NCBI RefSeq assembly: GCF_042477335.2
Contig: NC_091262.1
Span: 38,103,001 to 38,167,000, forward strand
Reading direction: 5' to 3'
From: Ovis canadensis
Lineage: Eukaryota; Chordata; Mammalia; Artiodactyla; Bovidae
DNA length: 64,000 nucleotides
The position numbers were made by a program, and so were the translations under genes. Numbering within the stretch: the first letter of the stretch is position 1; each line of letters opens with the position of its first letter. The notes beneath the pieces were generated by a model. The model did no database searches and was not told the DNA's origin. It saw only the letters and a program-made list of their open reading frames with translations. This document shows positions 13,671 to 34,604 of the stretch, piece by piece.

Positions 13671-13671
13671 A

Positions 13672-13914: not shown

Positions 13915-14031
13915 ATGGGTCGCAGGAGGGCCCGCCTATGGGCGCTTTTCCAGTGCTGCATCCCCAAGGCAAAGGCCAAGACAAGGAAGAACTTGGCCTC
14001 GGCCCAAGTCCTAGAAGCAGAGCGGCCTGAG
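13915..14031 (+). CDS. candidate initiator exon of the PPFIA1-like locus
   Basis: ATG with A at -3 and G at +4 opens 39 codons starting MGRRRARLWALFQCC and ending EAERPE, then a gtgaga donor at 14,032 in phase 0. The next recognised exon at 15,127 also starts in phase 0, so the two would join in frame. The N terminus is basic with a paired cysteine, which could be a lipidation site (inference). It does not match the liprin-alpha-1 N terminus, and I do not recognise it. The frame is also open upstream to about 13,756. Splicing to the liprin exons is a hypothesis resting on phase and position only. Confidence 0.35.
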
Positions 14032-14274
14032 GTGAGAGCAGCCGGGGGCTGGGCCCGTCGGATTGGCCTTTACCCGGCAAAGCGTTGGAGTTGTGTTTCA
14101 TTTTGTTAGCATGGTTGTGGGCCCTGCCGGCCAGGGCGTTTTGGCCTTCTGGGCAAGATGGACCCCAGCAGGTTGACCTTGTAAGTGGTTGTGCAGGGGC
14201 TGAGTGGAGGACGGGCGGGGGCCCCACAAGAAGGGAAACACTGTCTGGAGGAGTCACTGGGGTACGTGGATTGA

Positions 14275-14480
14275 GCTCTAGAGTCAGTCCTTGAAGCAGA
14301 AAGGCTAAGCCCCTTAACCTCTCCCATCTTACAAAGCACAGAACAGTGTGTCCAGTATCTTAATGACGGGTACCTGCTGCTTATGTGTATAACATACACC
14401 CTCATAGCTTCACATGTCTACTACATGCCTCTTAACAAGTGTTGGGCAGTGTTCTAGGTGCTGAATACTCAGTATGCAGT
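14275..14480 (+). repeat. MIR-like ancient SINE
   Basis: The stretch with gccccttaacctctcccatcttacaaa, followed by a tail around tactacatgcctcttaacaagtgttgggcag, resembles MIR in order and wording. It is diverged, so family assignment is approximate. Confidence 0.45.
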
Positions 14481-15126
14481 AGGGGATATGTAGCCCAGGA
14501 TTTTTTTATTTGTGTAAAGAAAACTAGAAGAATGAAAGACTCCATGTGGTTCAGTTTGAGCAAGTTCACCACGTGGACGGCACCGCGTGCATGAAAATTG
14601 TGATAAAATGCATAAAACATGAATTTAACATTTTCTCCAGTTTATTGACTGACTGGGTGACTTCAATGGAGTCAGGCTAACAGATGGCCTTGGGGGTGCC
14701 ATCAGCCTTTTTCCCAGAGGAACACTCCAAAGCCTGATGGCCTTGTAGATGTTACCTTTCTTCCTCACTCTTCCCAGCGGTTCTAGGTCACTTGTCTGTG
14801 TGTCGTTTAAGAATCTCTTTATCCACTTTGTTGTTAGGTTTATGTTTAGGGAAGTTTCTCCGACTTCCCTGGGTCTTGAGAAGGCAGGCTTGGATTCCGG
14901 GTTCTCCCCAGCCGCGTGCCTGCCAGGTCGAGGTGGAGGCTGAAGGCCGGTCTGAGTTGTGGTGGTCTGTGTGGTCTTGGGGTCAGTGGACCCCCTCTTC
15001 TCTGGAGGGGCAGGGAGACCCTTTGTGTGGAGCCTGGAGAGACTTGACAGGGTCAGTCTTCAGAGTCTCGCTCTCTTTTTAATTTGTGTTTGCATTTAGT
15101 TACTTACTCATTTCACTGTTTTCTAG
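14481..15126 (+). other. putative intron, nothing recognised
   Basis: Unique sequence between the candidate first exon and the first liprin exon. It ends in a good polypyrimidine tract and acceptor (cactgttttctag). Confidence 0.5.
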
Positions 15127-15231
15127 GAGTTGGCAACATCTACGGAAGAGGAACTCAATGTATGCCGGGAACAGCTTTTTGCAAGAGAAGAAGAAATAGC
15201 TCTGCTGAACACAGAGCGGAATAACACCAGG
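15127..15231 (+). CDS. PPFIA1-like exon A (coiled coil)
   Basis: Exactly 35 codons between an AG at 15,125-15,126 and a gtcagt donor at 15,232, phase 0 on both sides. The translation carries ELNVCREQL, AREEEI and ERNNTR, which match the liprin-alpha motifs ELNLCREQL, EREEEI and ERNNTR. It has one extra codon near the start relative to the remembered human protein (STEEELN against LTKELN), a three-base indel that keeps frame. Substitutions are spread along the exon. Confidence 0.85.
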
Positions 15232-15462
15232 GTCAGTAGGGGAATTCTCACGTGTTGACATTTGCCCCGCGGGGGCCACCGCTGGGCTCCGTGTTGCAGT
15301 CTTTAAACTCTGTCTGGTTTTCAAGTCATTTTTCACATCTTCCCACTGAGCAGACCAGGGTAGATCAGTTTGGAGTTCTCATACTTTGCTTCAAATTTAT
15401 GATGAGAGCTACTATAATTTTAGTACATTTGAGGGGGGAGTTCTCTTAACTTACAATTTTGT

Positions 15463-15566
15463 CCATGCTACAGTTTGTGTGGGGTCTTAGTTCCCTGACC
15501 AGGGATTAAAACCCATGACCCCTGCAGAAGTGTGGAGTCTTAGCTACTGGGCCACTGGGGAAGTCC
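15463..15566 (-). mobile_element. tRNA-derived ruminant SINE (CHR type), antisense
   Basis: Plus strand reads ggggtcttagttccctgacc and ends in gggccactggggaagtcc, the reverse of the common gacttccctggtggtccagtgg consensus start. It lies in the intron between exons A and B. Confidence 0.85.
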
Positions 15567-15701
15567 ACTCTAACTTTAGACTGAACTGGCAGGATTCCGA
15601 CTTGCCTTAGCATGTTTCCGCTGTAGCATGAGGCTGAGAGGGGTTATCGGCCGTGAATTCAAGCATGAGGTTGACGGTGCTCCTTTGGCCCTGCCCTGCA
15701 G

Positions 15702-15866
15702 CTGCTGGTGGAGCACCTGGAGTTCCTGGTTTCCCGGTATACACCATCCCTCCAGACGACGGTGGGCAAGTGGCAGGCGCAGTCCCCAGCCGGCATGACC
15801 AGCGAGCTGGAGGTGCTCAAGTCTCTGAAAATACTCTTTGAGCACCACAAGGCCCTGGACAAGAAG
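15702..15866 (+). CDS. PPFIA1-like exon B (coiled coil)
   Basis: Fifty-five codons from acceptor ctgccctgcag to donor gtacca, phase 0 on both sides. Contains [21 protein letters not shown] and [11 protein letters not shown], matching liprin-alpha LLEHLECLVSR, KRQAQSPAGV and [11 protein letters not shown]. About 40 of 55 residues agree with the remembered human protein. No stop and no indel. Together with exon A this is the strongest evidence for liprin-alpha identity, because this block is a hallmark of the family. Confidence 0.92.
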
Positions 15867-16021
15867 GTACCAGCCACCCGGCCATCCTGGATTTGTACAC
15901 TTGCAGCCTTGTTAGGTGGATGATGCATGTATTTATGTAACTAGTTGACTTTTGAGCTTCTTGAATTCTTGTAAATACTTTTTTTCTGTAAGAAGTCAGA
16001 GTTTTATATGGTTAAAAAGTG

Positions 16022-16232
16022 CTGCCTGCATACATGCTCAGTCATGTCCCAGTCTTTGTGACCCTGCGGACTGTGGCCCACCATGCTCCTCTTTTCCTGG
16101 GACTTCCCAGGCAAGAATACTGGAGTGGGTGGCCATCATCTACTCCAGGGTATTGTCCTGACCCAAGAATTGAACCTGCCCTCTTGTACTGCCAGGTGGA
16201 TTCTTTACCATTGGTCCACCTGGGAAGCCGCC
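16022..16232 (-). mobile_element. Bov-tA SINE, antisense
   Basis: Reverse-orientation Bov-tA: starts catgctcagtcatgtccca, has ggcaagaatactggagtggg, and ends at tccacctgggaagcc, the complement of the tRNA-derived head. Confidence 0.93.
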
Positions 16233-16446
16233 AGTTAAAAAGTATTAGTTGGTATAAATGTCTCAGGATTTATTACATTCTGTATATCAATTTGCAATTA
16301 AAAACTAAGTCACAGAATTATTTTAGGATAACATTTTTTCCCCTCTCAAACTTAGAATTTAAAGCTGTTAATAAGCAGATTTTTTGATGTTAAGATCAAT
16401 GAGATACATTAAATGTATTCTGTTATAGTAGCCGCGTGTGAGGGTG

Positions 16447-16731
16447 AGTATACAATGGCACCCCACTCCAGTACTCCTGCCTGGAAAATCCCATGGGTGG
16501 AGGGGCCTGGTAGGCTTCCATCCGTGGGGTCACGAAGAGTCGGACGCTGCTGAGCGACTTCACTTTCACTTTTCCCTTTCATGCACTGGAGAAGGAAATG
16601 GCAACCCACTCCAGTGTTCTTGCCTGGAGAATCCCAGGGACAGGGAAGCCTGGTGGGCTGCCATCTATGGGGTCCCACAGAGTCGGACATGACTGGAGCG
16701 ACTTAGCAGCAGCAGCAGCAGCAGCAGCTTA
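16447..16731 (+). mobile_element. BOV-A2 SINE (dimeric)
   Basis: Two halves (aatggcaccccactccagta and ggaaatggcaacccactcca) and an AGC tail of about seven units ending at 16,730. The element ends only about 10 bases before the possible start of exon C, so it may have replaced the native acceptor region. Confidence 0.95.
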
Positions 16732-16738
16732 CACTAAG

Positions 16739-16828
16739 AAGTGCACTCACGTATATACACACATCAACACACGAGGAGCACTTGAAAGCTGTAGTTTGTT
16801 AGAAGAATTAGGTGCCACGCATAACAAG
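16739..16828 (+). pseudogene. PPFIA1-like exon C, 5' half degraded
   Basis: The 3' half encodes ALESCSLLEELGATHNK, matching liprin-alpha-1 ALERCSLLEEELGATHKE with one glutamate codon missing, followed by a good gtaagt donor at 16,829. The 5' half no longer resembles the expected VRERLRV. The only available acceptor, ttacactaag at 16,738, is weak and lies beside the AGC tail of a BOV-A2. If used, the exon would be 30 codons and phase 0 on both sides. If not, skipping exon C also keeps frame. Confidence 0.7.
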
Positions 16829-16857
16829 GTAAGTTGGATCATTCATCGTGTAATTTC

Positions 16858-17208
16858 AGTTAGTTCAGTTCAGTTCAGTTCAGTCACTCAGTCGTGTCCG
16901 CCTCTTTGTGACCCCATAAATCGCAGCACGCCAGGCCTCCCTGTGCATCACCATCTCCCGGAGTTCACTCAAACTCACGTCCGTCGAGTCGGTGATGCCA
17001 TCCAGCCATCTCATCCTCGGTCGTCCCCTTCTCTTCCTGCCCCCAATCCCTCCCAGCATCAGTCTTTTCCAATAGTCAAGTCTTCTCATGAGGTGGCCAG
17101 AGTACTGGAGTTTCAGCTTTAGCATCATTCCTTCCATTCCTTCCAAAGAAATCCCAGGGCTGATCTTCAGAATGGACTGGTTGGATCTCCTTGCAGTCCA
17201 AGAGTTTG
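16858..17208 (-). mobile_element. BovB/ART2 3' fragment, antisense
   Basis: Starts in tandem ttcagttcagttcag and reads in reverse through the BovB C-terminal words [16 protein letters not shown] and LKLQYSGHLM. It lies 30 bases downstream of the exon C donor. Confidence 0.92.
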
Positions 17209-17539
17209 TCATTTGTATCCTTTCATTTTAAAAAAGTATGAAGGCTGTCGTGGTGGACATCAGATGTTCTTTATCTTTCTGGTTGAGGACCAGCCCACCT
17301 GGGTTATTTTAATGACTAGTAAACTAGACTTGTGGCTCAGAGCTGCAGGATCTCTTAAGCACCCCTTTGTCCAGGAGGAGACAAATTCTGACTCGAATCA
17401 CCTGGTTCTATTCGGGATGGATAGCATCACCATGTATTTTCTTTTTATGCTGTATTTTCAGTTTTGAGTTGAGTTTTTCCAAATGGAGTTTTGCTGTCTT
17501 TACTTATTTCTTTATTCTGATGCAATTTTTTGGTTTTCG

Positions 17540-17641
17540 CTGATGATTCTTAAAGAGAAGAATAACCTGAAAAAGATACTAATGGACAGGGTGCTTGATG
17601 TAAACCACAAGCAAGAAAACATGCCAAGCGCCAATGGAAAG
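17540..17641 (+). pseudogene. PPFIA1-like exon D, acceptor lost, GC donor
   Basis: Encodes LMILKEKNNLKKIL, RVLDVNHKQEN and PSANGK, matching liprin-alpha-1 LMILKEQNNQKKTL, GVLDINHEQEN and PSTSGK. The sequence ggttttcgctgatg lacks the AG expected before the first codons, as if a few bases around the acceptor were deleted. The donor reads AAG|GCATGT, a GC donor or a mutated GT. Skipping D would leave exon C or B joined to E in phase 0. Confidence 0.75.
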
Positions 17642-17861
17642 GCATGTCCTCGGTCTCACTCTCTGTCTGGTTCTCGTCTTACTATGCAGTCTGTGCAGGG
17701 CTGTTGAGACCTTTCACCAATGCACCATGTAGGTCTGAGTGGCCGTGAGGGTCGTGTGAGCCCAGAGCGCAGAAGGCAGTTTTGACTTCACCGATTTCCC
17801 GGAAGTGCTGCGTTCCCTCCCTCCCAAAACAAGGCTGTCTAAGGTTTCCTTTCCCCCTTAG

Positions 17862-18065
17862 AGAACCCGCGACGAAGACCTGGCTCAGGTGGTCGAGCTC
17901 AAGGAAATCATCAAGAAGAAGTCTCGGGAGCAGAGAGAGATGAAGGACCGCCTGGCAGCCCTCTCTGCCCACGTAACAGAGCTGGAGAAGGACCTGGACA
18001 TGGCCAGGAAGGACCTCCTCAAGTCCAAGGAAGTGAAAGTGAAATTACAGCAGGACGTCCGTGAC
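17862..18065 (+). CDS. PPFIA1-like exon E (coiled coil)
   Basis: Sixty-eight codons from acceptor tttcccccttag to donor gtgagt, phase 0 on both sides. Matches liprin-alpha-1 through DEDLAQVVELKEII, KSREQREMKDRLAALS, HVTELEKDLD and KLQQDVRD. About a third of positions differ, mostly like-for-like changes (E/D, I/V, K/Q, K/R) that keep the heptad character of a coiled coil. The SSDGSLSHE stretch near its start is shortened, in frame. No stop. Confidence 0.9.
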
Positions 18066-19979
18066 GTGAGTGACAGTGGACGTGTCTGTTGTCCTGAGGC
18101 GGAATGTGGGTCCCTTGTTCTCCCCGTGATCTCAGCCTTGGCATGGCTGCGTGAGCAAGAGCAGAGCACTGGCGAGACCGCCACTGGCTGCCTTCCCGCC
18201 TCTGCGTCGAGGTCTCTGGGGTAGAAGAGGCCTGGTCCAGGCGCCCCATTGGCAGTGGACCAACATGAGGGCAGTCCTAGCGCTGTGCTGCACCCTGGGT
18301 GTGGACTCCTCATTTCCACAAGTTCTAGGGGGCCTAGTGTGTTCCTTTTTTAAAAATTCATTCATCCACTCATTCATTTATTGGAGTATAGTGCTTACAC
18401 TGCTGTGTCAATTTCTGCTGTACAGTAATGTGAACCAATCACATATATATATATATACACACACACACAAATATCCCTGTCTTTTAGATTTCCTACCCAT
18501 TAACTTCACCACAGAGCACTGAGTAAGGTTCCCTGTGCTTTTCAGTAGGTCCTTACTCATTGTTGACTTGATGCATAGTATCAGTAGTGTATATATGTCA
18601 ACCCCAGTCTCCCAGTTCATCCCCCTACCTGCCTGCTGAATATATTCCCGATGATGCTGAAATTTCCTTCTGATTCACTCAGATGAGTCTGAACATCTGT
18701 GGAGCCCTCTCTCCCGGAGAGATGGGAACATGCTGTGTGGGCTCTGCTGAGGCAGCTTGCCTGAACATCTTCTCTAGTTTTCTGAGGTTCCACTCCTTGA
18801 AAGGATGTGTGACAGTGATACCAGCGGTCAGACAAGTCGAGTGGCGTTTGCTCACCCTCAGATCCTCAGGCCCGTGCTGTGTAACCATGCAGAATCAGGA
18901 TGTTTCTGGCGGTCGTGTCTGCGGGTGTCATGATTTATGAGAAGCTCCCTAACGGTCACTGTGAAAACAGAAGAGAGCTGGGGGCTCAGGCCTCCTCCTG
19001 TGAGCCTCGCCTCTCCTCTCTGCGCAGAGAGACAGTGCCCACCCTGCCCCACCCCTCCCCCGTGAGACCGTCTCAGAGTGCACCCCTCCAACATGTGGTA
19101 CAGCAGGTGTACTTGTTTAGTAGCTCGGTGTGACTAATCTGTCTGAGAACTCAATACAGAAATATTTGCACATGTTTGTATAACGTGTTCACACTACTCT
19201 TTGGCAACAGGAGGAGATTAGGTGGCAGAGATTAATACACAGAGAATTCTGGAAAAAGCGTTTTTAAGACCTTTCACTTTTAATGTTAGGACAACATTGG
19301 TTACTTAGTGAGCACGGAGGGACCTGAAATGGATTTTGAGCCGGCGGACAGGAGTCGCATCGGCAGCAAGCTCTGCTCCTGGTTTGAGCGTTTCCTACAT
19401 GCGGTGTAACTGCTTGAGAAGAACTAGGCTTGAGAAGGCTGCTCCAAGTTGTGTAACACTTTGACTTCTGTTTCTACTCATTAATATTCTTATTTAATTT
19501 TGAGGAAATTGCATGAGATTTTTCCAACTTTTACCTGAGGAATGAGCCTCAGAGCTCCCTGTAGGATCTGTTGAAGGTCCCTCCCTGTTCTGGGTCAAGC
19601 CCGCCTGTATGGTGTAGGAGACAGAGATCCTCATTTCATGCCAGATACCTTCCCTCCTGGAATTCTTGCAATGACAGAGTAGTTAAGTGTACTTTTTGTT
19701 TGCTGGTTGGGTTTATGATGTAGAAAAGAAGCTTGGTAAATCGAGTGGCCAGACAGACGTTAAGACAAATGGGTGCCATCGTGGCAAATGTGACATTTGA
19801 GGTAGGCGTGTTTTTGCTCACATCTCAGAAAACTGCCATGTCTAGGACTTTAATTTTGAGGACACTAATTATATCTTTGATTTGAAACTTAGGATTTAGT
19901 CTCGCTTTTTTACTCTTAAGTGTATCGGAGTATTCTATGATAATGACTTACCTTTTCTCCTCTGCAATGCCTGGTGTAG
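18066..19979 (+). other. intron E-F, mostly unique
   Basis: Contains an antisense L1 3' UTR remnant (18,345-18,645) and otherwise unique sequence with no second gene seen. It ends in a clear acceptor tcctctgcaatgcctggtgtag. Confidence 0.6.
18345..18645 (-). mobile_element. artiodactyl L1 3' UTR fragment, antisense
   Basis: Plus strand reads atttattggagtatagtgct, then tttctgctgtacagtaatgtg, a (TA)n(CA)n run at 18,441-18,469, and ccagtctcccagttcatccc. This is the reverse of the L1 3' UTR found widely in cetartiodactyls. Confidence 0.75.
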
Positions 19980-20126
19980 GCTATGGCCCAGAAGGAGGAC
20001 ATGGAGAAGAGAATCACTACACTTGAGAAACGCTACCTCGCTGCACAGCGCAAAGCCATCTCTGTGCACAACCTCCATGATAAACTTGAAAATGAAATCG
20101 CAAATAAGGATTCTATGCATCGACAG
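19980..20126 (+). CDS. PPFIA1-like exon F (coiled coil)
   Basis: Forty-nine codons, acceptor ggtgtag, donor gtaata, phase 0 on both sides. It encodes [20 protein letters not shown], then [17 protein letters not shown] and [12 protein letters not shown]. Only about five residues differ from the remembered human liprin-alpha-1, making this the best conserved exon of the locus. No indel, no stop. Confidence 0.92.
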
Positions 20127-21516
20127 GTAATAGCTTTTCCTGAACTGTGTCTGACTTCTGTAGAAGTGAATACAGAGGAAGGAAGGTAAAGACCTTTTCA
20201 TGTGACTCCCATGTTAGAAATCAAGTCCCAGTGTAAAGTTCTTATGACCCTAAAACACTGCGTTCAAAAGTGTGGATGTACATCATGATAAATCAGCTGT
20301 ACTGAAAGGAAATACGTTTTTTAAAATTGAAGGTGACTGCAACTTCGAGGTTTGAATTATTTGGGATTTGGGTTGACCATTTTGTGGAATTCCACTCCTG
20401 ACTCTTGTTTTACTTGACTTGAATCTGTTGGCTTGTTAGCATTTTTACTGAAAGAGCAGAGAGCAGCAGGGAACTTCACAGCAGCTGGCTGCCTGTTGGG
20501 AACTGGGGTCACTGTGACAACAGGCAGGGTTAGAGCTCCAGTCTGATTAGGGTTTGTACTTCCTGTGGTTTGGTGAGCTTTACTTGCTCCTGTTCCTGTG
20601 TGGCCTCACAGAATCAGGACTTAATCAGGAAAACCAAATCTGGCTTCTCCAAAACAAAGTGAGTCAGTCTGGTGTGTGACAAAGTGTATCATTGGCCCCA
20701 CTACAAAAATAAAATACTAGAAAGCCATTGAAATGTATGATGTGGAATGCTAATTAAGAGCATTCCGATATACAAAATAATGGCTGTAAAAGGCAGATCA
20801 GAAAATACTACGTACCATATGCTGTTGTTTTCTGAGGGTTTTAAAGCACATCTTATTGTTTATGTATGTACATAGAGTAATACACACACAGAAAAAATAA
20901 GAAAGCTGCTTAGAAATAAATGCTAACCTCTCAGGAAACCCAGCGTATAGATCATTTCATTTTTTTTTGTTTTTCAAAAACGAATCTGTCTAAATGTTAT
21001 ACACTGCAAGTTTTCTGAGTAAGAAGATCTGTTAAAAGAATAATCATGCATTTACAAATATTAGTTGACTGGCATTTCCCCAGGCACACTCTGATCAGGT
21101 CTGTATTTCAGAGGAGATGAAAGCCATATTTTGGCTTACAAGCTGATGGCCGTCTGCGGTCAGTAGGGTTCCCTTCAAATGATGATTCAGGTGATGTTTT
21201 AAGAAGGGTCAGTACTGACCCTTAACTTGTCAATAGGAATGAATAAGCTTCTACAGAAACCTGATCTTCTTTAATATATAAGAACTTTTTTTTTTTAAGA
21301 CTTCTTTGGAGACGTTTGGAAAAGCAAATACTCTGGCAGGAGGTGTTCTGTCCACTGAGACCAAGCCCAGGAACACTGAGAGAAAAATTACCCTGACGCG
21401 GCTTCCGAAACAGAACTAATCCTGTAGACTCATGCATTTAGGTTTTGTCTCAGCTTACTAACAATGGCAGAGGCTACACCACTTGGCCCGTTTTGATGTT
21501 CTGCTCTCCTTTGTAG
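20127..21516 (+). other. intron F-G, unique sequence
   Basis: AT-richer unique sequence. No exon of the liprin series and no recognised young repeat was seen. It ends in acceptor tgctctcctttgtag. Confidence 0.55.
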
Positions 21517-21633
21517 AAGGAGGATAAAGACCGACAGCTGCAGGAGTGCCTGGAGCTGGCAGAGCAGAAGCTGCAGCAGATGCTGACAGAAGTGGTGGCT
21601 GAGCTGGCTCAGCCGGTGGCTGCGCTCTCCAAG
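21517..21633 (+). CDS. PPFIA1-like exon G (coiled coil)
   Basis: Thirty-nine codons, phase 0 on both sides, donor gtgctg (weak). Encodes KEDKDRQLQECLELAEQKLQ and then AELAQPVAALSK, matching liprin-alpha EDKNRQLQERLELAEQKLQQ and AELAQRVAALSK. The KAETLPEVE segment is reduced to a few residues, an apparent 18-base in-frame deletion. The next liprin exons, beginning AEERHGNIEERL, are not recognisable as intact exons downstream. Confidence 0.88.
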
Positions 21634-24600
21634 GTGCTGCTCTTGGTCCCCGGGGGGCGGGCGCGGGGAGGGCCTGTTCCCTTGCTCTCCCACTGTGCCC
21701 CTCCCCGTGCTGCTCAGTCCACAAAGGAGCGCAGACGCGGGGGTCGTGCTGCCCGTCTGCGATGGGAGCGCTCCCTGAGTGTCAGACAGTCCCCGCTCCC
21801 ATGTCATCCCTGTGTTAACTTCCCTGCAGTTTTGTCCTGTGCTCTGTGTGTCCCCAGGATGCTTCAGCTCCAAGTCACTGCTGCTCAGAGTTCAGTCAGC
21901 AACTCAAAGCCTAGCAGGATAAAGAACGAGAAAGATCCCATTCTCGTTAAGAGATGGCCAAAATAGCTCTGTCATGAACACAGTTTTAACTCTTTATTTA
22001 TATATTGTTGAATAAGTCACAGCAGGGCACGGTGCAGACCCAGGGCCCCACTCCCAGCTTGCAGTCCCCAGGAGCCTGAGGGTGAGAGGCCACGTCCAGG
22101 AGACGTGGCGCTGCTGGGGATATGGTGCCCACAGCCAGCCAGCCACCCCATCCTTCTGGTGGGATAGGTGTTGCCTTGCACTGCTGGTGGGCACTGGCTG
22201 GGCATGGAGAGGTGGGCCGGGCCTGTGCTGGCCTGGCTGTTGGAGAGTTGCCTGGAGCTCAGGGAGCACCTGAGGGGCCGGCCAGTTTCCAGAGGAGGGT
22301 GGTATCCTGTGCTCGCAAACCCTCCCCGAGCAGGGTCACTAACAGCCGCCAGGGGGCGCCCTCCTGCCTGTGAGCTTCCCCTCAAGGGTTGGTTTCCTCT
22401 CTCCCCTGGCATCTTTGCTGTCTGTCCCAGGTCGGCCTTGCAGTCTGAACTTTTGTCTTCCGGAAGCTCTGCCACTAAGGAGGCGAAACTTTTGGAACTT
22501 ACCTCCCAGCTTAGGAAGGAAGAACGTGTGCCCTCGTGTGTCCCGTGCTTGCCACTGCCTGCTGCCTGCGCTGGCTCGCCCCAGGCAGTCTGAGGAGGGG
22601 GCCTGGGGCCAGGGGAGCACCTCTCCTCTCACGAGCCTGTCACCAGCACCCTCTGTCACCCACGTGTCACACATGAAGCTGCGCTGGCTGCGTGAGCAGG
22701 CGTGCGGGTGTGCCCCCCGCGAGCCCGGGGCCAGTGGTCCACACAGAGCATGGCCCCCTTGCCGCCCCTGCGGTCACAGCCCGCGTACCATCAGGACAGG
22801 GTCGCTGCGAGCGGAGCTGACGCTGTTCTTGGCCGACAGGCGGGAGAGAGACCCAGCGGCATGGAGGAGAGGGGCCTGTGGGCCAGAGACGTGGCTGGGC
22901 GGGGCCGGCGCTGCCTTTCTCCGCTGCTCCTGTCTCTGCCGTCCAGTGTGCGTGTGTGGCCCTGTCTGCTGCTCCAGGGACCCAACCTCGGGAGCAGGGC
23001 CAGATGTGGTCTCTCGTAGGTGGTGGGCAGGGGCCAGGGGGTCCCCACGTTCAAGGAGGACGCTTGTTGCTCTGACCAGCCAGGCTGGGGAGCTGCTCAG
23101 CATACAGTTGGACCTTACGAGTGGCCCTCAAACCTAAGGGAGCCAGCCCGAGGCCCGTGAAACGGAAGGCATGGTGCCCAGGTGTGGAGGTGCTTGCCTC
23201 GGACGTGGCGCTGGAGTCCCACATGCCAAACTGCTGGTCCAGACGTGGGGTATGTGTGTAGGATGGCTGCTCCTAGGCAGGAGGAGAACCGTAGTTGCGC
23301 TGCAACAGAAGGCCCACCAGGAAAGGGCGATGGTGGAGGCTCGCATTAGAGAGCCCTGAGAGAGGTTTCCCGGAAAGGTTGGCCACACAGTGGTACTGAC
23401 CATCCAGGAACTGGAGTGGGGATCCCAGGTCCAGCCTCAGGTGTCAGTACTGTCCCCACCATAGCTGTGTTCTTGGGCCTGGACTGCAGAGCCTCATATG
23501 TGGGCTCCAAGGGGCTGTGGTTCTGACTCCCATCATGAGACCTCGGTGAGGCTCCCTCTCTGCAGCAGAGAGGGCTCAGTGTCTCCTGATCAGGGGTGCA
23601 CTTCCTTACTTTCAGAACTGCTGCTCAGAGCTGTTGAGATTGGGATTCTGTTTATGACTAAGCCAATTCAAAGTAAACTTTTGTTTTGCTTTAAAAAGAT
23701 TTGAATGCTGATGCCTTATGCCTTCATGCTAGTCAATAAGCGTGACAGCATCCACAGGCAGTGTGTAAAGGAACAGACATAGATGTGTGCCCACAACCCT
23801 TCCAGAAAGCATCAGTGAAGCGGAATCACCAGTGGCCCCGATGTTACCAGCCTCTGTGCTAGAACATTCTTCTAGGTCCACCCTCACCCCTTCGTTTCTT
23901 TCTTAGAAGTTTATTTCTGGGGCTTTGCTGGCAGTCCAGTGGCTGGGAGCCTGCCTTGCAAGGTCAGGGACGCAGGTTCGATCCCTGGTTGGTGAGCTAC
24001 GATTCCACATGCCACGCGGCAATCACATCAAAGGAATCGCGCATGATGCAGCTAAGGCCCGATGCAGCCAAATCAATAAGTTTAGTTCAGGATCTTTTAT
24101 ATAATGTGCTAGAAAAGATTGAAGCAAGTAAAAGCAAGCATTCTCATGTTCCAACTCCAGCCATCTCTCTTTTTATTTGCTTTGGAAAATGTCTGAGAAC
24201 TTCTATCAGAGCAGCTCAGTGGGCAACAGTCTGGTGGAGGTTCAGGGAAAACCTGTCCCAGCTGCACCGGTGCCCTAAAGACGAGGCCCAGAACCTTCGC
24301 CGAGGTCGGCGCTTGGGCGACGCTTGTCTGAGAGAGACCCATGGTCACTACAAGTTCTGCGGCACATTTTTCCCCCACAAAACCCAAGATGACACCCATA
24401 CCTCACTAGAGAGCTCTCTTCACCCTGACCTGTGGGCTGGCCCTGAGGTGGGGATAGTTTTGTCTCCGGTTTGAATTTTACATGTGAAACCTGCACCAGT
24501 TTCCTGAGTGACCACTGAACTGCAAAAGCTGAAAGCAAGTATAAAGCAGTTTCACTTACCCCAGGGACCTGGCCTCCTTGGATCTAGAAGATCAGTCGGG

Positions 24601-24795: not shown

Positions 24796-24858
24796 AATTC
24801 TCTGCTATGGGAAGTTGAAAATGCAAAAAAGCATTTAGAAGAAATGCAAAACGACAAG
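24796..24858 (+). CDS. PPFIA1-like exon H (coiled coil)
   Basis: Twenty-one codons from acceptor tttttcag to donor gtcctt, phase 0 on both sides. Encodes NSLLWEVENAKKHLEEMQND plus K, matching liprin-alpha-1 NSLLREVESAKKQLEETQHDK at about three quarters of positions. In the functional gene it follows the MAALEDK exon, which is missing here. The frame would still pass directly from exon G. Confidence 0.85.
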
Positions 24859-26676
24859 GTCCTTAAATCTCTAAATCCTTTAGAAATGTGTTACGAGCTG
24901 AACTGAGCTGGGTTCATTGTCACAGTTACTGCAGATGCTTAGCGGAAGTGGAGTTACATTTTCCTTATGGCTAGTCCACTGCAGTAATGTGTATAGCATT
25001 TCTGGTTTTGAACATTGAATGTGATTTGCATTATAGGCAGATTTAGAGTGTGTGGCCGTTGTGTGTGGTTCAGAATTCTAAGTAGTCCTTTCTGGGTTCA
25101 CCCGAAAGCTGAGACAAAGCATGAGCCTTTCACGTGGAAAGTGCTGTCCATCAGAAAGATAATAGGAGCCACACACACAATCTAAAATTTCCTAAAAATG
25201 AGCGGGCTGCTTTACATGCTTTTTTCACTGCGAGTCTTGAAATCTGTGTGATTTCCACATCGAGCTTTGCACCGGCCTGCGTCACATCCTCAGGGTGCTG
25301 CACAAGGCGAGTGACTGCCATGGCTGACAGCACAGAGCTGCCAGTTTGAGTCGAGTGACTCGGAAACTTGGCCGTTTGACCTGTTTTACCCCGTGAGGAA
25401 GTGAAGTGGGGTGTAGAGGAATGAATGTGAGGAATGCCCAGGAATGCATGTGAGGTCCATGGAAACAGTCTAAAGCAATGAGAGGAGCGAGGGCAATAGA
25501 GTGAGTCCTGTCCCCCACCACCCGAACCCCGAGCCCAAGTCCAGCTTCTCTCCATAGGCTTCGTTGTCGTCAATGGCTTGCCATGTTTCCTCCAGAAGCT
25601 TTTCTACACCTGAGATGTAACTTCTTATTCATTATGGTTTAGAAGGGTTAGTATTGTTCTGAGTGTTTCTATTTGCTATGGAACACCTAGAGTACAATTT
25701 CTCAGAATGAAAATGTTCAAAAATGTGCTATTTTAAGGCGAGAGAGTGGAGAGGATGTGCTGATCGGGCTGATGAGGGTGAACCCATAGGCAGCTAGTTC
25801 ACTGGAGCGGAGCAGGAATGATGGCAGGTGGTCCTGGAGCCAGGAAAAGGGGTGGCCCAGCCCTGGGGAGGGGTCGTGACGAAGACAGAAAGTGAAGGTA
25901 CTGGCCGCGGGGGACAGGGAGCCGGCAAGCCAGCAGCTCGAGGCTGCCCCTCCATTGCTTTGAGGTCATGTCTGGGAAAACAAGGCAGGACCTGGGTGAG
26001 AGTGGGGCAGAGGGGAGATTTGCGGAGAGAAGGGTGTGAGGTGTGAGAGCGGGAGGGCGGCACGGGGCCCAGCAGGCACTCTTGCATGCGTCTCAGATGA
26101 CAGAGGCGCCCTTGCGGTGTGAGGGGCCATCCCCAGAACAGCCCGAGGGCCTGTGCCCTGAGAGGAGAGCCACGGGAGGCTGGCCCTCCCATCCACTGGC
26201 TGCCCCTGCTCACTCCTGTCTGTGCGTGTTCAGACCAGCCTGGAAAACGGAGGGCTGGGAACCCGCGAGGACGGCACTCCTCGGCGAACTAGTACCAGTG
26301 ATGACCGGTGGGGTGGACCCAGCGGCTGCGGAGCTGAAGGGTTTTATTTTCTAATTTTCCTTCACCCTGGCTGATGGAAGCAAGGATATATTTTGTAATT
26401 TTCGGTTTTTGTCTCTGACTCCATCAGGGCACCCTTGTGAATAACCTCATAGGATTGCCTTCCGTCCACGTGAGACCTGAATGTCACCAGGCCATCTAGG
26501 AACTGGATTCTCCTCCTGCCCGTTTCTTCAGTACTGCTCGCTTAAGAGATGGCAGTGTCTCATAAGCAGGGCCCATTTGTCCAAAGTCAGGGCTTCCATG
26601 TAAAATTGTGTTCAGTTCCTGATAGACTTGAGGTGCCCAGAATGTTGCTGACGAGACGTGGTCCTCTCGTGCCCAG
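24859..26676 (+). other. intron H-I region, unique
   Basis: The expected exons for the DQLVLNIEALRAEL to RPQKGRLAALRDE part of liprin-alpha were not found. Otherwise unique sequence without a recognised repeat or second gene. Acceptor cctctcgtgcccag at the end. Confidence 0.5.
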
Positions 26677-26900
26677 GTGCAGCCCCTGAAAGATCAGGAC
26701 CGGGAGCGCGAGCAGCAAGCCAGCGTGCTGGCCAACGTTGGCCAGCTGTTCGAGACTGACAAGGGCGTGTCAGACGGCGAGGGTGACCGGGTCACCCTCT
26801 TCAGCATGCCCGCTCTGCTGTCGCCCCGCGGTGAGGCCGATGCCAAGACTCCGGCCAGGAAGATTCAGAAGCAGCTGGACAGGATCAACGAAGAAAGCTG
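26677..26900 (+). CDS. PPFIA1-like exon I (linker)
   Basis: 224 bases opening in phase 0 and closing in phase 2 at donor gtgggt. Encodes DREREQQASVLANVGQLFE, VSDGEGDR, ALLSPRGEADA and QKQLDRINEE, matching liprin-alpha-1 WERAQQASVLANVAQAFE, VSDGEDDR, DLLSPSGQADA and QEQLDAINKE in the same order. CpG-rich compared with its surroundings. No stop and no frame-breaking indel. Confidence 0.9.
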
Positions 26901-28699
26901 GTGGGTGCGCCTGAGCCCAGCTCCCCGGAGGCTCGGCTTCTCTGAGCAGCTGTCTCCTGCTTAGAGAAGTCTGAGTGTTCCATAGTGAGAAAACTGACTT
27001 CAGGTCTGCTTCGAGAATTTTCAGTTCTGAGATTGCCCTTGATTATAGAGCTCAGTCAGCCAGGGCATTCTGTCCACAGTGTGGTGTCAGCACTCTGTTG
27101 GGGGGGCGTTGTGGGGTGTCACCCCCTCAGCTCTGGGCCCCAAGGTGGGTGAGGTGCCGAAGCAGTATCCCCTGTGGCCTGTGCACCCTCCAGCACTGAG
27201 GGTTCGCCCTCGTGTGTCCCTCGGAGCCTTCTACCTTCTGGTGAAAAGCCACCTGGAACAGAAAAGCTGGGGTTCTGGGCTTGGCAAATTCCCACTCAGA
27301 TCTGCATTTTCCTTTTTAACTTAATACACTGTGAAGATTGGCTTGTTGTAAGACAGTGACCCAAGGACATGTGTTTGAGTTTTTCTCATCTCATCAGTAT
27401 ATTTAAAATGTTTTCTTTAGACCCAGTCTTGGCAGTTAGAACAGTTTACAAAACAGGATAGAACCCAAAGGCCCGCCTCGTGGTGAGCAGGGGACCCTGG
27501 GTCTGGGTGCAGCCGGGTGGCTGGGGCCCCGAGGCCTGCCTGGTGCCACACCCACACAGCTGTGCCTCCTGTCCCGAGTCCACGTTCAGAGTGGCCGCAG
27601 GCCGGTGACCCTGCACAGGACCTGGCAGAGCTGCTGCTCAGATTGTTCTCATCCCGTCACCCCTGGCAAGGTGCCCGTTCCTGCCAGTTGAGTGCGGGGG
27701 CTCAGGGAAATGGCAGGTGTGAATGGCACAACCAGCAAACGCAGATGGTGCCGCCTGTACTTTTGACACTGAGACAGACTGCTTTGTGGGCCGTGTTTGA
27801 GCACAGACAAGCTCAGAAAGATTGTCTTTCCTCATCCCTGTAGGAAATTTGGAACACTTCTGTATTAATATTTTTATTTTTAGAGCAAGTTGTCAGGTAA
27901 AAATGATTTTTCCTTATGCAACAAGTTGACTTGATGTAAATGGTAAATTCTGTCCATCAACTTGTCAACAGTGAAAAACTTTCAAGATGTATAAGTAGAA
28001 GTGAAACTGGAGAGTTTACTACCTGTAAGGATCTTGTATTTTAATTTGAAAATCATTTTATTTGCATAATCATGCATTGAATCTGTATATAAAATCATCC
28101 ATGACACATTAGGGGAGAAGAGCAGTAACTGTGAATTCTAGGTCAATGCAGCACATTGACCTGAATCCAGAAACTCACACAAAGCTGGTGGAGAACTTCA
28201 TCAAGTGATGCGTTTGCACATACACAAGCTGAAAACAGAATGAAAAGTGCAACTCAGCACTTCATCTGGTCTGGAGACGTGTGTAGAAACTCCAGCTTGC
28301 TCGTGAATGGCTGTTTTGGTTATACGGAGTTCCGGATTCCCAGTGGAAAAGCTCTGAGGCACTCACGTGCATCTCTGCCCTGAGAGCAGGGAAGGTAAAG
28401 GTGGTCAGCTTCAGGTATCTCCTCACAGGGAGAGTCACCACCCAGGCCCCATCAGAATGTTAGAGTAAATAAGTCAAATGAAACGTGAATGATGAGGGGC
28501 CACTTTGTAAGACTCAATGATAAGTGATTCTAAGTTTGAGAATATTCCAAAGAGGGAAAGCTGAACCTTTTTGCTGAGATGTTAATTGAGTAACTCTTCC
28601 TGGAATTTGCTAATCGTGACACAGAATGCAAGCCCACATTTGCTGTCCAGACCTGTTCCTCTGCTGACAAAGGCAGGTGATGATTTTATTCTGTTTTAG
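26901..28699 (+). other. intron I-J, unique
   Basis: GC-rich in the first 900 bases and AT-rich afterwards. No exon, repeat family or second gene recognised. It ends in acceptor ttctgttttag. Confidence 0.55.
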
Positions 28700-28931
28700 G
28701 TTCATCCACAGAGACAAGGAGAACACGGATCAGCGGGCAGAGGGGATTGAGAGCAGGGTGGGCAGTGGGAGCTTCAGCAACCTTCGGCGCTTTAATTCCT
28801 CGAGCTCCCTCAACCTGGATCCCGCCTCCTCGCATGCCGGCTCCTTCCCGCCCAGCAGAGGGCGCTCCATGCCCGAAAGGAGGCAGCAAAGCCCTGAGCC
28901 AGAAGAAGACAAGCTGGGCTTCATGACTCTG
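28700..28931 (+). CDS. PPFIA1-like exon J (linker)
   Basis: 232 bases, phase 2 in and phase 0 out, donor gtatgt. Encodes DKENTDQRAEGIESRVGSGS, NLRRFNSSSSL, PPSRGRSMPERR and DKLGFMTL, matching liprin-alpha-1 EKENTEQRAEEIESRVGSGS, NLGRFRSMSSI, PPGSGRSTPRRI and DRLGVMTL. Open throughout. The upstream junction with exon I gives W at the split codon where liprin-alpha has R. Confidence 0.9.
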
Positions 28932-29082
28932 GTATGTGTCTGCCTCCTCTCTGCCGCGTCCCTCCTGGAGCACACTGGTTTTCTTTTGTTTGTTTGTTTT
29001 TTCTCTTTTTACCCAGAAGAAAATCAGGTACATTTGCTCGCTCAGAGGTCTAAGATTTTTAAAACTGCCTAGTCTTGAATCG

Positions 29083-29282
29083 GGCTTCCCTAGTGCCTCA
29101 GACGGTAAAGCGTCTGTGTGCAATGCAGGAGACCCGGGTTCGATCCCTGGGTTGGGAAGATCCCCTGGAGAAGGAAATGGCAGCCCACTCCAGTATTCTT
29201 GCCTGGAAAATCCCATGGACCGCGAAGCCTGGTAGGCCACTGTCCATGGGGCCGCAAAGAGTCGGACACGGTCTAGCTTCCT
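29083..29282 (+). mobile_element. Bov-tA SINE
   Basis: Starts gggcttccctagtgcctcag, has ggttcgatccctgggttggg and ends near aagagtcggacacg. Typical sense-orientation Bov-tA. Confidence 0.95.
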
Positions 29283-31114
29283 CACTCTTCCGAGTCTGAA
29301 AACGGGATGACGACCTAGGGCTTTTGGTGAGAGAGTGTGCGGCTATAAAGCACATGTTCCAGCTTTCTTCCATGTTTAGCTTAGGTTTTGCGAGTGCATT
29401 GCTGTTTACCCCATGAACTCATGTTTACAACACTCTGCTTTGTAACTGCACTTGTATTTTCACTTTTTTTTGGTTACCACCCGTTTCATGTTAGCTGCAT
29501 TGTTAGTCGGCATATAATTAAATTAACTGTGAATCATTTAGCGGCATGCGAAGTGGTAACTAGTCCATTTTGTGGTCTTTGGAGACACTTTTTATAATTT
29601 GCTTCGTTGGCTAATTAGTTGATATTTAAAATTCTGTGACGATTTCTCTGTAGTTTCACGATTGATTTCTTTCCAAGTATTTGTAGAAGAGCAGTTCTGT
29701 ATATTTTGTCCTGCTGTTGTAGTTCTCTGACGGTGTGTCTGGTTTCCTCATTGGTTTTGATTTCCTGGCTCATCCTGTTGTCTGCTCAGTGGTTGTCAAT
29801 CCAGACCCCAGCTTCCCACCACTGCCCCGCCTCGCCCCCGAGGCTGCAGCTGACCCATCCGTCTCCCCTTCCCCGTCCTCCCACCTGCTCTGGTCATGGC
29901 AGTGCTGTGGTCCACAGCAGGCGTCCCCTTAGTCGGGTTTGTGCTTTGTCTTCATGTCTCATCAAATGGTGTTTTCCCCCATAGCAGTAAGTTTGAATTA
30001 GCATAGCACTATGCAGTTACAAGCGTAATGCAGATGGATCCTAAACTGCATATCATGTGTCATTCATAAAAGAGATTATCCTTACCTAAAGAAATGATCT
30101 TCTTCAGTGTAGAATTAATGGACTTTTGACACAATATCCTTTCTGTGTTGGTGCTTGTTTTTAAGACTATAAATCTCATCACCTTTTGCACAGTTAATGT
30201 CTCTGCTAGACTCTTTAAAAAGCATCTTCTATGGTTAATAAAATGTAAAGACTGCACCTGCTATTATGCTAGCTTTCTTTCTTACATATTTTCACAGGGA
30301 ACCTGCTTTAATACATTTATTTTGAGAACTTTTAAATCAAATTCTAGGTAAGAATTTTGTGTTAATGTCCAATAGATGGTTCGATTTGTTCAGTGTTCAA
30401 ATAGGTATTATGGTAACTTCCTCATCAGTTAAATTACTATTTTAAAGTATAACATGTTTTCTATGAAGAGAAACTAACTTATAGAGAAGTTTGGCTGAGA
30501 ATAGACAACTGTTAAGGGCCTTTATTGTACAGAATGCTGTGCTTTAATAGATCATGATGTTGTAATAGAATTGTATCTTCCTGAGTAATAATTTATAGTG
30601 TTTCTCTAGTAAATCTTGAATAGCTTATTTAATTTCTGTGGTCCTAAGAAATGTTTTGTTTCCAGTTACATGTTCTCTAAATGTTCATCTCAGTTATATG
30701 TTTGCCATCATTTTTGGTATACTGTGTTTGTCTGTACTGATTCTTGAATTTTTAGCTTCAAAGTCACAAGAAATCTGGTTTCTCTTCATTTCTTTGCATG
30801 CATCTATCAGCCTAGTGATTTAAGGAAGCATTGTCGAAAGGTAAACTATTTAGTAGTTTAGCATGCCTCTGTTTCTCTGTGAAGTATTAGAGAGTCCTTC
30901 TCATTTTACATGAATGAACACTGTGTGGTTATGTACTGGTGAATAATTGACATTTTAATGGAAGTAATGAAACTCACCCACCACTGGGTGCTGATGGTTC
31001 TGTTGGAAATAGGTCATTTGTTGGGGCAATTGTAACAGTTTGCCAGTCTCCCAATTGTTTGCCTTCTAATCATCTCATGCTTATTTATAATAGACACAGT
31101 ATTATTTACTATTT

Positions 31115-31255
31115 TAAAATTTTTCTTTACTTATTTTTTTGGCCATGGTGCACAGCTTATGGGATCTTAATTCCCCAACCAGGGATCAGACCAGTGTCCT
31201 GGCAGTGAAAGTGCCAAGTCCTAATGTCTTGACCACCGTGGAATTTCCGCTTAGA
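31115..31255 (-). mobile_element. tRNA-derived ruminant SINE (CHR type), antisense
   Basis: Plus strand has tttttggccatggtgcacagc, ccccaaccagggatcagacc and a terminal ccaccgtggaatttcc, the reverse of the CHR-type consensus. Confidence 0.85.
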
Positions 31256-31329
31256 GTTTTTTTTTAAACAAATGACTGAATCAGAGCCATAGAAGTTAGA
31301 TTTGGGGGAAGCCAATTTAATGACGGTGG

Positions 31330-31535
31330 GTAGCAGTGTGCAGGAGACTCTGTGTGCCAGGCACCGTGTCGAGTGCTTTCCGAGTCTGTCATCTAATCCC
31401 GCAGACGCCAGGTGAGGTCCAGGCTGCTGTTATCCCCATTCAGCAGACAGGGACACTGAGGCTTAGAGAGGTGGCTCCCACACCCAGCAGTGTGGTTCGG
31501 ACTGGTCAGATCAGAGCCTGTGGTGCCATCCAGCC
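31330..31535 (+). repeat. MIR SINE
   Basis: Core words gtgccaggcaccgtgtcgag, ttatccccattcagcagaca and gaggcttagagaggt are diagnostic of MIR. Confidence 0.8.
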
Positions 31536-32574
31536 CGCTTTGCTCCAGAGGTTCTCGTGTCCATCACGGCATCCCTGATGGAGGGAGCATCAGGAGGGAG
31601 CTCGCTGCTTCTCCCCTTTGGTCACTTGGTTGAGCCCCTGTTGTTGGAGTCCAGTGCCCCGAGGGCTGGCCTTCCTTGTCCCTCTCCCACTCCCAGCCCG
31701 CTGATCGAGCACTCCTGGGGCCTTCCTGCAGGACTCGGGCAGCCGTGCTCCAGTTCAGGCAGCTCAGTGCCCGGGAGCCCTTCTGCTGGGCACAGCAGAG
31801 CAGCGCCATCACCCTGGGGTTGGTGCCCTGGGTGTGCCGCTCGCCCGCTCTGTGGCCCGCTTTGCCCTCCTGGTAAGTGAGGACACGGCACTGCCCATCC
31901 TAGTCATGTGGGCACCAGTGGGGCGGCTCCCATCCTGGGGGAGGGTGGCCAGGCTGTGGACCCAGAGCCTTCCTTGGGAGGAGGCCCGGGGGAAGGGGCT
32001 GGCCGTGGCCCCTGACTCTGAGGCGGGTGTTTGTCTCCACTGAGTCCACAGTCACCCCGGGTGTGTCCCTTCCCTGCTCTGTTCTGTGTTGTTTTCTGAT
32101 TTTTATAAGTGCTTATTTTCACTTGAATTTGAGGTTGATCCCCGTTCAGTTCCATGAGGATAATTTCTAGCCTTTGTAGCCTTCTGTTGTCTGAGGTTTC
32201 TTGGTAGAGGTCAGGGAAGGGTGCCCAGTTTATCCAGCTGCTGTTAAATGAGTTCAGCTGTATTTTGCACTAAGTCACTTTGTTGTCACCAAGCTCCTGT
32301 GCGGCTGCACGGGACCAGTGTTCTTTACAGAATCCCATTAAAAAAGGACTGGTTAGTTGGTTAAAACAACACACTCATTGTTTATAAAAATACTTGCCAT
32401 GCATGTTTCCTCAAACCTCCCCTGCTTAACCACACACCCAAATGTATAAGTGAGACCTGTCTGGACCCTGAGGGGTTCATCTGTTCCCCACACTGTTGCC
32501 ACCAGTGTCTTTCCTATCTTCAGACCCAGGACTAGCGGAAGAGCTGGGAGTCCAGGCGAGATCATCTTTTTCTT

Positions 32575-32748
32575 TTCTTTAGTTTATTTTTTAATGGAAG
32601 GAAAATTGCTTTACAGAATTTTGTTCTTTTCTGTCAAACCTCAACATGAACCATCCATAGGTACACGTACATCCCTTCCCTTTCGAACCTCCCTCCCATG
32701 TCCCTCCCCATCCCACCCCTCTAGGTTGATACAAGATTATTTCTTAGT
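32575..32748 (-). mobile_element. artiodactyl L1 3' UTR fragment, antisense
   Basis: Reads aattgctttacagaattttg, then gaaccatccataggtacacg and catcccacccctctaggttg. It is the same family as the fragments at 37,530 and, in sense, at 60,405. Confidence 0.8.
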
Positions 32749-33388
32749 GAAGACCTAGGAGAGCTTTATGTAAACCCCAGGGAGCAAATGACACTCAGAC
32801 TGGGTGTAAGCACTTCAGTGTGTAGCCCCCGGTCTGTGTATTACTGAGAAATACAAGCCAGACACATGGTGTTCGCATGGAGGGCTTAGGTACCTTTTCT
32901 GTGTTTGACTTGTTGTCATGGGTTCAGTAACCTGCGTCATCACTACAAATGATCTTGGGTGGTGGTACAAGCTGTTTCCTTTTCTCCTTCAGATAGAAAG
33001 GTCTGGACGGCTTTGCTGAGAGGTTTCTTACTCTTGCTAGTGGTGCCTCCGAGCAGCATCTGACGATGAGCACAGTCCTTTCATCAGGGCAGTTCATGCC
33101 ATGCAGGGTTCTCGGTGCTGGCGTGGCTCTGCTGTCCTGCCTGGCAGGACCATCTGGTTGCTGGATTTCAGGGAGTGCAGAGCCCGGCTGCAGGGAGGCT
33201 CCCGTCCGGGGTCTCTGCACTCAGTGGGGTGCTCTCGCTGCTCCACGGCCTGGCTTCTCTTGGACAAACAGTCCTTTAAGATGGCATTAAGTTGGAACAA
33301 GGCTTTTTTTTGTATTTGGCGGATAGCATAGCTAATATATTTTCAAGTAAGTTTCTGGTTATAATGTAAAGCCTGTGTGATAGCCTTT

Positions 33389-33694
33389 TTCGACACAGTC
33401 TATTGTTAGCCAATTTTACACTTACCTCACTCCCTCAGCTGCCAGCTATACAGGAAGAGGTAGAAGATGACACCATCAAATGTGAAACCTCGACCTCCGC
33501 CTCGCTGCGGTCCTTTCGGCTGGACTGGCTCACGGGCTCACTGCGCACAGCCAGCGATGAGGACATCAGGGACGCCCACAAGTAAGGGGCCTGCTCGCCT
33601 CATCGTCAGTTTCAGGAGCCCTGTGCCTCTTGTCTTGAAAGAGTTGCAAGGATGGTTGTAAAGGAATCCCACTGGATTCGGTGCCTATGTTTAG
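33389..33694 (+). repeat. duplicated exon unit, copy 1 (contains exon K)
   Basis: About 306 bases that recur in direct orientation at 40,447-40,760. Homology starts at tcgacacagtctattgt upstream of the exon, covers the whole exon and about 110 bases of the following intron, and ends at gattcggtgcctatgtttag. Flanks differ outside these points. Confidence 0.93.
33439..33581 (+). CDS. PPFIA1-like exon K (linker), copy 1
   Basis: 143 bases, phase 0 in, phase 2 out, donor gtaagg. Encodes LPAIQEEVEDDTIKCETS, LRSFRLDWL and ASDEDIRDAHK, matching liprin-alpha-1 LPPSREEVRDDKTTIKCETS, LRLDRL and VSHEDIRDIRN. Two codons (K-T) and one further codon are missing, all in frame. This copy is the one placed correctly before exon L, with matching phase. 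Confidence 0.88.
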
Positions 33695-34431
33695 TGGTGA
33701 ACTTCAGGTGCTGGGGTAGAAGAGCTCAGTGACCTCAGTGATTTTAGAAAACATCTGTCTCTACGTGTCGACTCCTGTGGGAGGTCTCTTCCTGCTCTTG
33801 CTAGAGGTCTGCCAGGCCTGGGGCACGTTCCTGATGGTTACGGGTCCATGCCTCTCGGCTTTGCTCTTGAGGGTCCCTCCCTTTTCCTCAGGGGCCTCCT
33901 CTCAGGACATGTCTGTCCCCTCCTGTGACTGACACTGTTCTCATTCAGACCCCCACCTGCTGAGCTCCCGTCGTGAGCCAGGCAGCACTCGATAGAGGGT
34001 ACATGCGGTCACCTGACCAGCAGCCCTGCACAGTGAACGTAGCTCTCCTGCCACGGCCGAGGACGGTCACCCTGCAGGAGGCGGGGGGAACTGCCCAGAA
34101 CTGGGGAGCTCGCCTTCTCTGGGAGCGTCATCACCTGCCGAGCAGTGACCCTGAGGGAGGGTCGGGGCGCCCTCTGCACCAGCTCGTCTGGAGTGAAGAC
34201 CTCCCTCCTTGGGGGAGGGCTCCAGTCAGAGAATCTCAGCTTCCTGGGCCATTGGTTGTGGCCGGAAGCCTGCATCGCTCGTGTGGAGTGTGGGTGGTGA
34301 AGGAGACTCCACTGTCTGCTGCGAGGTTGAGGCGTGGGTGTTGCTGGGTGGCTGGTTCTATCAGTAGGTCTTATGGAGGGGTGTGTGTTTGCACAAGGGT
34401 GCCAGTTAAAGGGCATTTTCTCTCCCCGAAG
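33582..34431 (+). other. intron K-L
   Basis: Unique sequence. The part near 33,940-34,050 resembles a decayed MIR. Ends at acceptor ttttctctccccgaag. Confidence 0.5.
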
Positions 34432-34604
34432 CGCGACAGGCTCTCAGGACGGTCCCGGGGGCAACCCCAGCAACAGCAACAGCAGCCAGGACTCGCTGCA
34501 GAAAGCCCCGAAGAAGAAGGGCATCAAGTCCTCCATCGGTCGTTGGTTTGGCAAGAAGGAAAAGGGCCGGCCTGGACACACTAGCAAGGAGGCGTTAGGA
34601 CCAG
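34432..34604 (+). CDS. PPFIA1-like exon L (linker, basic KKK region)
   Basis: 173 bases, phase 2 in, phase 1 out, donor gtgggt. Encodes [20 protein letters not shown], then [20 protein letters not shown] and [15 protein letters not shown], matching liprin-alpha-1 almost residue for residue. The IKSSIGRLFGKKEK segment has a single L to W change. Last exon of the locus with an intact frame. The next liprin exon (about VSETDNSSQDALG to RKLQKK) was not found. Confidence 0.92.

Follow-up and report, generated by a model that had tools for sequence, protein, structure and literature searches.

We report here a chain of diverged liprin-alpha exons in a 64,000-nucleotide stretch of the Ovis canadensis genome (called the window below; C18:38103001-38167000, contig NC_091262.1), which is probably the 5' portion of a gene in a PPFIA1-derived, multi-copy family that encodes coiled-coil proteins without intact SAM domains and has been under mixed selection. 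Over the history of this family, the reading frame has been kept while the amino acids changed fast. That the family has been coding over its history is likely; the window copy itself is designated a putative gene, with less certainty. The genome searched consists of 2.97 Gb on 42 contigs, which are designated by C-numbers throughout this text.

Exon chain of the window copy

The chain begins with a start exon, E1 (13915-14031), which has 39 codons, an ATG and the donor GTGAGA, and continues with exons A (15127-15231), B (15702-15866), E (17862-18065), F (19980-20126), G (21517-21633), H (24796-24858), I (26677-26900), J (28700-28931), K (33439-33581) and L (34432-34604), the final open exon, all on the plus strand. 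F is the slowest-changing exon, and I is a fast-changing one. Together these exons make up 563 codons with no stop, with GT/AG borders and with consistent phase, and about 597 codons are obtained when exon C (17540-17641, plus strand), which is also open, is added. The preliminary description of this DNA had claimed an open, phase-consistent chain of about 590 codons with GT/AG borders, had suspected a weak acceptor at exon C and had stated that the downstream exons are broken, and our analysis agrees on each point. The acceptor of exon C has CG in place of AG, and in the decayed 3' part of PPFIA1 (40847-44817, plus strand), the SAM exons at 43.4-43.8 kb have a stop and a frame change.

PPFIA1 exons R and S are left as plus-strand remnants outside the chain, at approximately 16772-16831 (5' end gone, 3-base deletion) and 22838-22872 (cut by a deletion), respectively, and neither remnant shows a stop. 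For PPFIA1 exons T, U and V, no match was found within the window. A stretch of about 2.2 kb holding exon T is absent from the window at 23718-23723; the copy designated C2:21.7 retains this stretch, and among the matches listed, eight C18 places also match it.

Relationship to PPFIA1

Liprin-alpha genes in this genome sit on C21, C3, C14 and C12, and the PPFIA1 exons map to about C21:63.67-63.71 Mb, the query being an approximate sequence. Comparison of the window from exon A to exon L with the latter region gave 12 matches of at least 600 bases, which account for 18.0 kb of the 20 kb, and no match of this length was found to the examined pieces of PPFIA2, PPFIA3 and PPFIA4. Because long intron matches lead only to PPFIA1 on C21 and none to the PPFIA2-4 pieces, derivation from PPFIA2 was rejected. 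In a tree of exons, in which PPFIA2 was represented by exon I only, the split of the parent and the family from PPFIA2-4 was weak (31.9/50). Judged by sequence similarity, the family descends from PPFIA1 and not from another liprin-alpha gene.

The predicted product matches Pfam PF25526 (LIP-1, the liprin-alpha coiled coil) with an E-value of 9.7e-44 over residues 137-312 (3-185 of the 250 positions of the profile), and it also matches the solved liprin-alpha-2 chains 8z22, 7d2h, 7d2g and 7d2e. Exon order, exon borders and coiled-coil sequence are like those of PPFIA1. Unlike PPFIA1, the window copy is without the first PPFIA1 exons, has another start exon, has lost or cut exons R, S, T, U and V, has no intact SAM exons and is one of many copies. 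Since liprin-alpha proper is recognized by intact C-terminal SAM domains, the window copy with its broken SAM exons falls outside that class. With a 95-residue SAM query, partial stop-free matches were found at three C18 and five C2 places and longer, stop-bearing matches at five C2 places, and no match was found on C24, C26, C6, C9 or C23.

The block with the start exon of the family (13493-14586, plus strand) has no long match in the parent PPFIA1 region, as comparison with 60 kb of the parent gave one 60-base match besides chance-level ones. The founder of the family would have gained E1 or, alternatively, E1 may have been lost from the parent, and the SAM exons would have been lost or have decayed. 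The product would be a PPFIA1-like coiled-coil protein of at least 563 residues. Because of the domain match and the solved coiled coils of liprin-alpha-2, such a protein could pair with liprin-alpha coiled coils or with their partners, without the ligands bound by SAM domains.

Copies in the genome

For exon B, 48 matches were counted in the genome, with 15 on C18, nine on C2, 20 on C24, two on C26, one on C9 and one on C6. This count comprises matches spanning query residues 34/35 to 90/91 and a partial C6 match (35-79), and leaves out liprin-alpha genes, intronless places, three partial C24 matches (14126642, 14501160 and 15211844) and partial matches on C5 and at C9:40820874. Among the 40 of 124 candidates that were scored, the E1 block was found at 15 places on C18 and at others on C2, C24, C26, C6 and C9, and none was listed on C21. 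Copies of the family are present on at least seven contigs (C18, C2, C24, C26, C23, C9 and C6), and the C23 copy is retained from exon F onward in the stretch examined. On C18, 11 plus-strand copies, the window among them, are 58-114 kb apart, and four minus-strand copies lie about 2 Mb away. Intron divergence is 2.4% among the C18 copies, 5.5% between these and the C2:21.7 copy, and 14.6% between these and the parent. The reading of the window as a single duplicate was rejected on the basis of the 48 exon B copies. Beyond the 15 counted copies, a sixteenth exon J, 99% identical to that of the window, was noticed at C18:38315498-38315828 and may belong to a partial unit.

Retention of the reading frame

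Pieces containing A and B, C and E, and F and G were fetched from the 14 other C18 copies, and from nine of the 14 also I and J. With the window included in the tally, exons A, B, E, F and G are free of stops and frame breaks in 15/15 copies, and so are I and J in 10/10 copies read. Exon A is open in the C2:21.7 copy as well, and H is open in the copies read (window, C2:21.7, C23, C6 and C9). Among the 19 copies with full coverage of E1, which include 13 on C18 (all except 37928 and 35946), 18 have an open exon that starts with the ATG, and the C6 copy has a stop; three more copies were partly covered. Exon B is stop-free in 46 of the 48 matches (15/15 on C18, 8/9 on C2, 20/20 on C24, 2/2 on C26 and 1/1 on C9, with a stop on C6), and the C24 matches have no stop, yet their protein identity to the window is just 63-73%. 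Sister copies have decayed, as stops or frame breaks affect the C6 copy in B, F, R and E1 and the C9 copy in F and G. Independent stops in the same exons, which had been named beforehand as a refuting sign, were unseen in the C18 copies read and are rare in exon B elsewhere (2/48), within this genome.

When the parent exons were mutated neutrally with 120, 150, 180 and 200 changes (1500 runs each), 3.7, 1.5, 0.7 and 0.3% of the runs, respectively, had no stop, and the window chain acquired 3.4 to 5.7 stops over the range of 120 to 200 changes. The replaced codons in the window chain numbered 136, compared with a simulated mean of 114.5 at 200 changes. Parsimony over a tree of the window, the 14 C18 copies, C2:21.7, C23 and the parent (H, I and J being taken from the window, C2:21.7, C23 and the parent only) gave 266 replacement, 124 synonymous and no stop changes, with changes on the parent branch not separated. 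Neutral ratios predict 10.9-14.6 stops over this tree against the zero seen (P from 2e-5 to 4e-7). The family frame has been kept against neutral expectation, a conclusion that is weak for the C18 lineage alone.

Insertions and deletions (indels) tell the same of the exons: 10 of 11 exon indels keep the frame, versus 3 of 53 intron indels, counted from the window against the C2:21.7 and C23 copies, that are multiples of three (Fisher P = 2e-8). The in-frame exon indels are, in bases, A 3, E 18, G 18, I 9, J 3, J 9, K 6, K 3, L 12 and R 3; whole-exon deletions and the C6 and C9 copies, where both kinds of indel occur, are left out of the count. The E deletion is relative to the parent, and that of G is common to the window, C2:21.7 and C23 copies. 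Without R, which is outside the chain, 9 of 10 are in frame (P = 9e-8), and without K as well, whose gaps relative to the parent were read in the window only and could be parent insertions, 7 of 8 (P = 2e-6). Exon L was read in two other C18 copies, each with a 12-base in-frame deletion, the exon end being outside the stretch read. Of the 113 splice-flank sites around exons A, B, F and G, 4 vary, compared with 212 of 1978 intron sites (P = 0.01); the corresponding numbers are 4/26 for C and 2/28 for E.

Retrocopies

Four intronless places were fetched, which are designated C13, C9, C3a and C3b. The C13 retrocopy has exons A-B-I-J, that of C9 has A-B-C-E-S-U-V-I-J, C3b has A-B-G-S-U-V-I with a stretch retained between V and I, and C3a has E-G-T-H-U-V-K-L. 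They are joined at the predicted exon borders and are themselves decayed. In the exon tree, constructed without C3a, the family including the retrocopies is supported at 99.7/86, and the C13, C9 and C3b retrocopies lie inside it, where they form a group with the C6 and C9 copies that is supported at 92.5/90. The retrocopies show splicing at the predicted borders for this older subfamily, not for the C18 copies.

Two of the places have further sequence upstream of exon A. In the retrocopy C3:45205201-45206500 (L114), the translation of 150-330 reads by eye like a Frizzled receptor, as if two transcripts had been joined. In the retrocopy C9:38323601-38326100 (L112, reversed), 250-430 reads by eye as the intron that follows J in reverse complement, an inverted stretch that resembles the 5' inversion of retroposition driven by long interspersed nuclear elements.

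Substitution rates

Pairwise omega (dN/dS, the ratio of nonsynonymous to synonymous substitution rates) was 0.46 (0.30-0.72) between the window and the C2:21.7 copy and 0.87 (0.50-1.72) between the window and the C23 copy. The codon model gave 0.475 for the set of the window, C2:21.7 and the parent and 0.33 for exon B alone, and among 11 sets, these two and no others were different from 1. A CpG-aware expectation calibrated by introns was computed for 10 C18 copies, which have 29 synonymous changes versus 28.1 expected, 87 replacements versus 65.2 and no stop versus 3.4. The excess of replacements has a P of 0.006, or 0.019 when rate error is allowed for. Without exon F, which was excluded after inspection of the data, 84 replacements are seen versus 55.7 expected (P = 0.0002 or 0.0017).

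On the C18 lineage, exon I has 22 replacements versus 12.6 expected and exon J 18 versus 11.3, with one synonymous change in J. Exon F has three changes versus 12.5 expected (P = 0.0016). The case for diversifying selection is moderate. Selection may have been of more than one kind, preserving the frame and, in some exons and most clearly in J, promoting replacements.

Alternative explanations

Several of our results speak against a coding role or narrow it. Omega of the codon model was 1.16 for the C18 copies and 0.83 for these with C2:21.7, neither distinct from 1, so that a value below 1 among the copies was not found, and decaying copies would give a like omega near 1. This is the outcome of the dN/dS check that the preliminary description had named as refuting, although exon B (0.33) and the pairwise value for C2:21.7 are below 1. 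Pairwise omega between the window and the parent, 0.47, is near the 0.5 expected when the copy alone decays neutrally. One C2 copy carries a stop in exon B. As for the retrocopies, none of the four was found to contain E1, those placed in the tree derive from the C6/C9 side and none from C18, and the exons skipped differ among them. One alternative is that the copies are non-coding duplicates, i.e., a segmental duplication family whose exons have stayed open by chance and in which any transcripts would be by-products. An omega near 1, exon sets that vary between retrocopies, and the loss or breakage of R, C, S, T, U, V and the SAM exons in the window agree with this. Such chance survival, however, has to be reconciled with 266 replacements without a stop, with 10 of 11 indels in frame and with an exon B that is stop-free in 46 of 48 copies, and we consider it very unlikely.

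For the C18 lineage alone, the absence of stops is weak evidence because just 2.7 (15 copies; P = 0.067) or 3.4 (10 copies; P = 0.033) are expected. When exons A, B, E, F and G were compared in 15 copies, no excess was seen (51 replacements versus 48.1 expected, 19 synonymous changes versus 18.4), and therefore the excess rests on I and J. Exon F has no synonymous change versus 3.0 expected, and its omega of 2.47 is not distinct from 1, so its slowness may be local and not due to selection on the protein. Exon B has an omega of 0.33 but, measured against the intron-based expectation, an excess of replacements, because its synonymous changes are also high (9 versus 4.6 expected). The slow synonymous sites of F and the missing excess in the 15-copy test add weight to the non-coding explanation and also to another one, that the family was formerly coding and that the C18 cluster was amplified recently from a copy just out of function, its openness being due to youth and gene conversion. 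This agrees with the divergence of only 2.4% among C18 introns, with an omega near 1 and the few stops expected on this lineage, and with a window copy whose exon C has no acceptor and whose exon S is without its end. Nevertheless, the indels of A and L within the C18 group and the 18-base E deletion common to its copies are all in frame, the flanks of A, B, F and G are conserved, and replacements exceed the neutral number (87 versus 65.2). We regard recent loss of function as doubtful.

The sole out-of-frame exon indel is a 2-base deletion at the end of J in the C2:21.7 copy, the flank test over all exons read except C gave a P of 0.11, and 4 of 28 flank sites of exon I vary. The frame break in J also bears on whether selection has acted on the 5' coding part only, with I to L as passengers and a shorter protein, which is compatible with a coding family as we propose it. 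That K was read in one copy and L in three leaves room for this version, but in all ten C18 copies in which they were read, I and J are open and have GT/AG borders, and the C13 and C9 retrocopies contain both exons, and so we think it unlikely. For the coding gene derived from PPFIA1 that was proposed in the preliminary description, the few stops, the in-frame indels, the splice flanks and the retrocopies give support, while the idea of one duplicate has to be replaced by that of a large dispersed family.

Relation to known genes

We take NC_037348.1 to be cattle chromosome 21, the counterpart of sheep 18. No paper about this family was found in the open-licence literature. Genes with automatically given names are comparable by name and place. 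According to an excerpt of PMC9663842, sheep LOC114112008 (liprin-alpha-1-like, chromosome 24) belongs to a co-expression module of lamb perirenal fat; a C24 cluster is present in this genome, and we have counted this listing in favour of a coding family. Cattle LOC112443149 (liprin-alpha-1-like, NC_037348.1 at about 33.0 Mb) is placed between 5S rRNA genes and adjoins an S-antigen-like gene in the part of PMC11882585 that lists it. In the pig, a liprin-alpha-1-like transcript on SSC2 is named in a passage of PMC4633681. The window has at 36683-37447 an array of an 18-base repeat with long minus-strand open frames, and such a repeat could yield a prediction like the S-antigen-like neighbour in cattle.

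Should members be expressed, a large, little-studied set of liprins without SAM domains would be present in sheep and probably in other ruminants, and the copy number in the clusters could vary between breeds, hidden from short-read studies. The best-known examples of frame-keeping genes in segmental duplications with replacements beyond the neutral rate come from primates, where core-duplicon families such as NPIP and GOLGA8 consist of dispersed segmental duplications around a fast-changing gene. The present family is like them in both respects and differs in founder gene, lineage and a moderate excess of replacements. We put forward tentatively the wider possibility that a PPFIA1 fragment, once provided with a new start exon, turned into a gene that evolves fast under positive selection and is transcribed in the germline, whose roughly fifty copies seed segmental duplication on several chromosomes and whose SAM-less product competes with normal liprins at synapses or adhesion sites, as a ruminant counterpart of the primate core duplicons.

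Other features of the window

A scan with Rfam gave a single tRNA-like match. Between exon L and the decayed 3' PPFIA1 stretch, a second copy of exon K (40447-40645), frame-broken and out of gene order, was noticed, and on the minus strand, 40083-40136 holds part of the final exon of PPFIA1, with an end that resembles the liprin C terminus. Open frames at 34889-35164 and 44830-45108, on opposite strands, have translations that are similar by eye, and this stretch seems to be repeated in inverted orientation.

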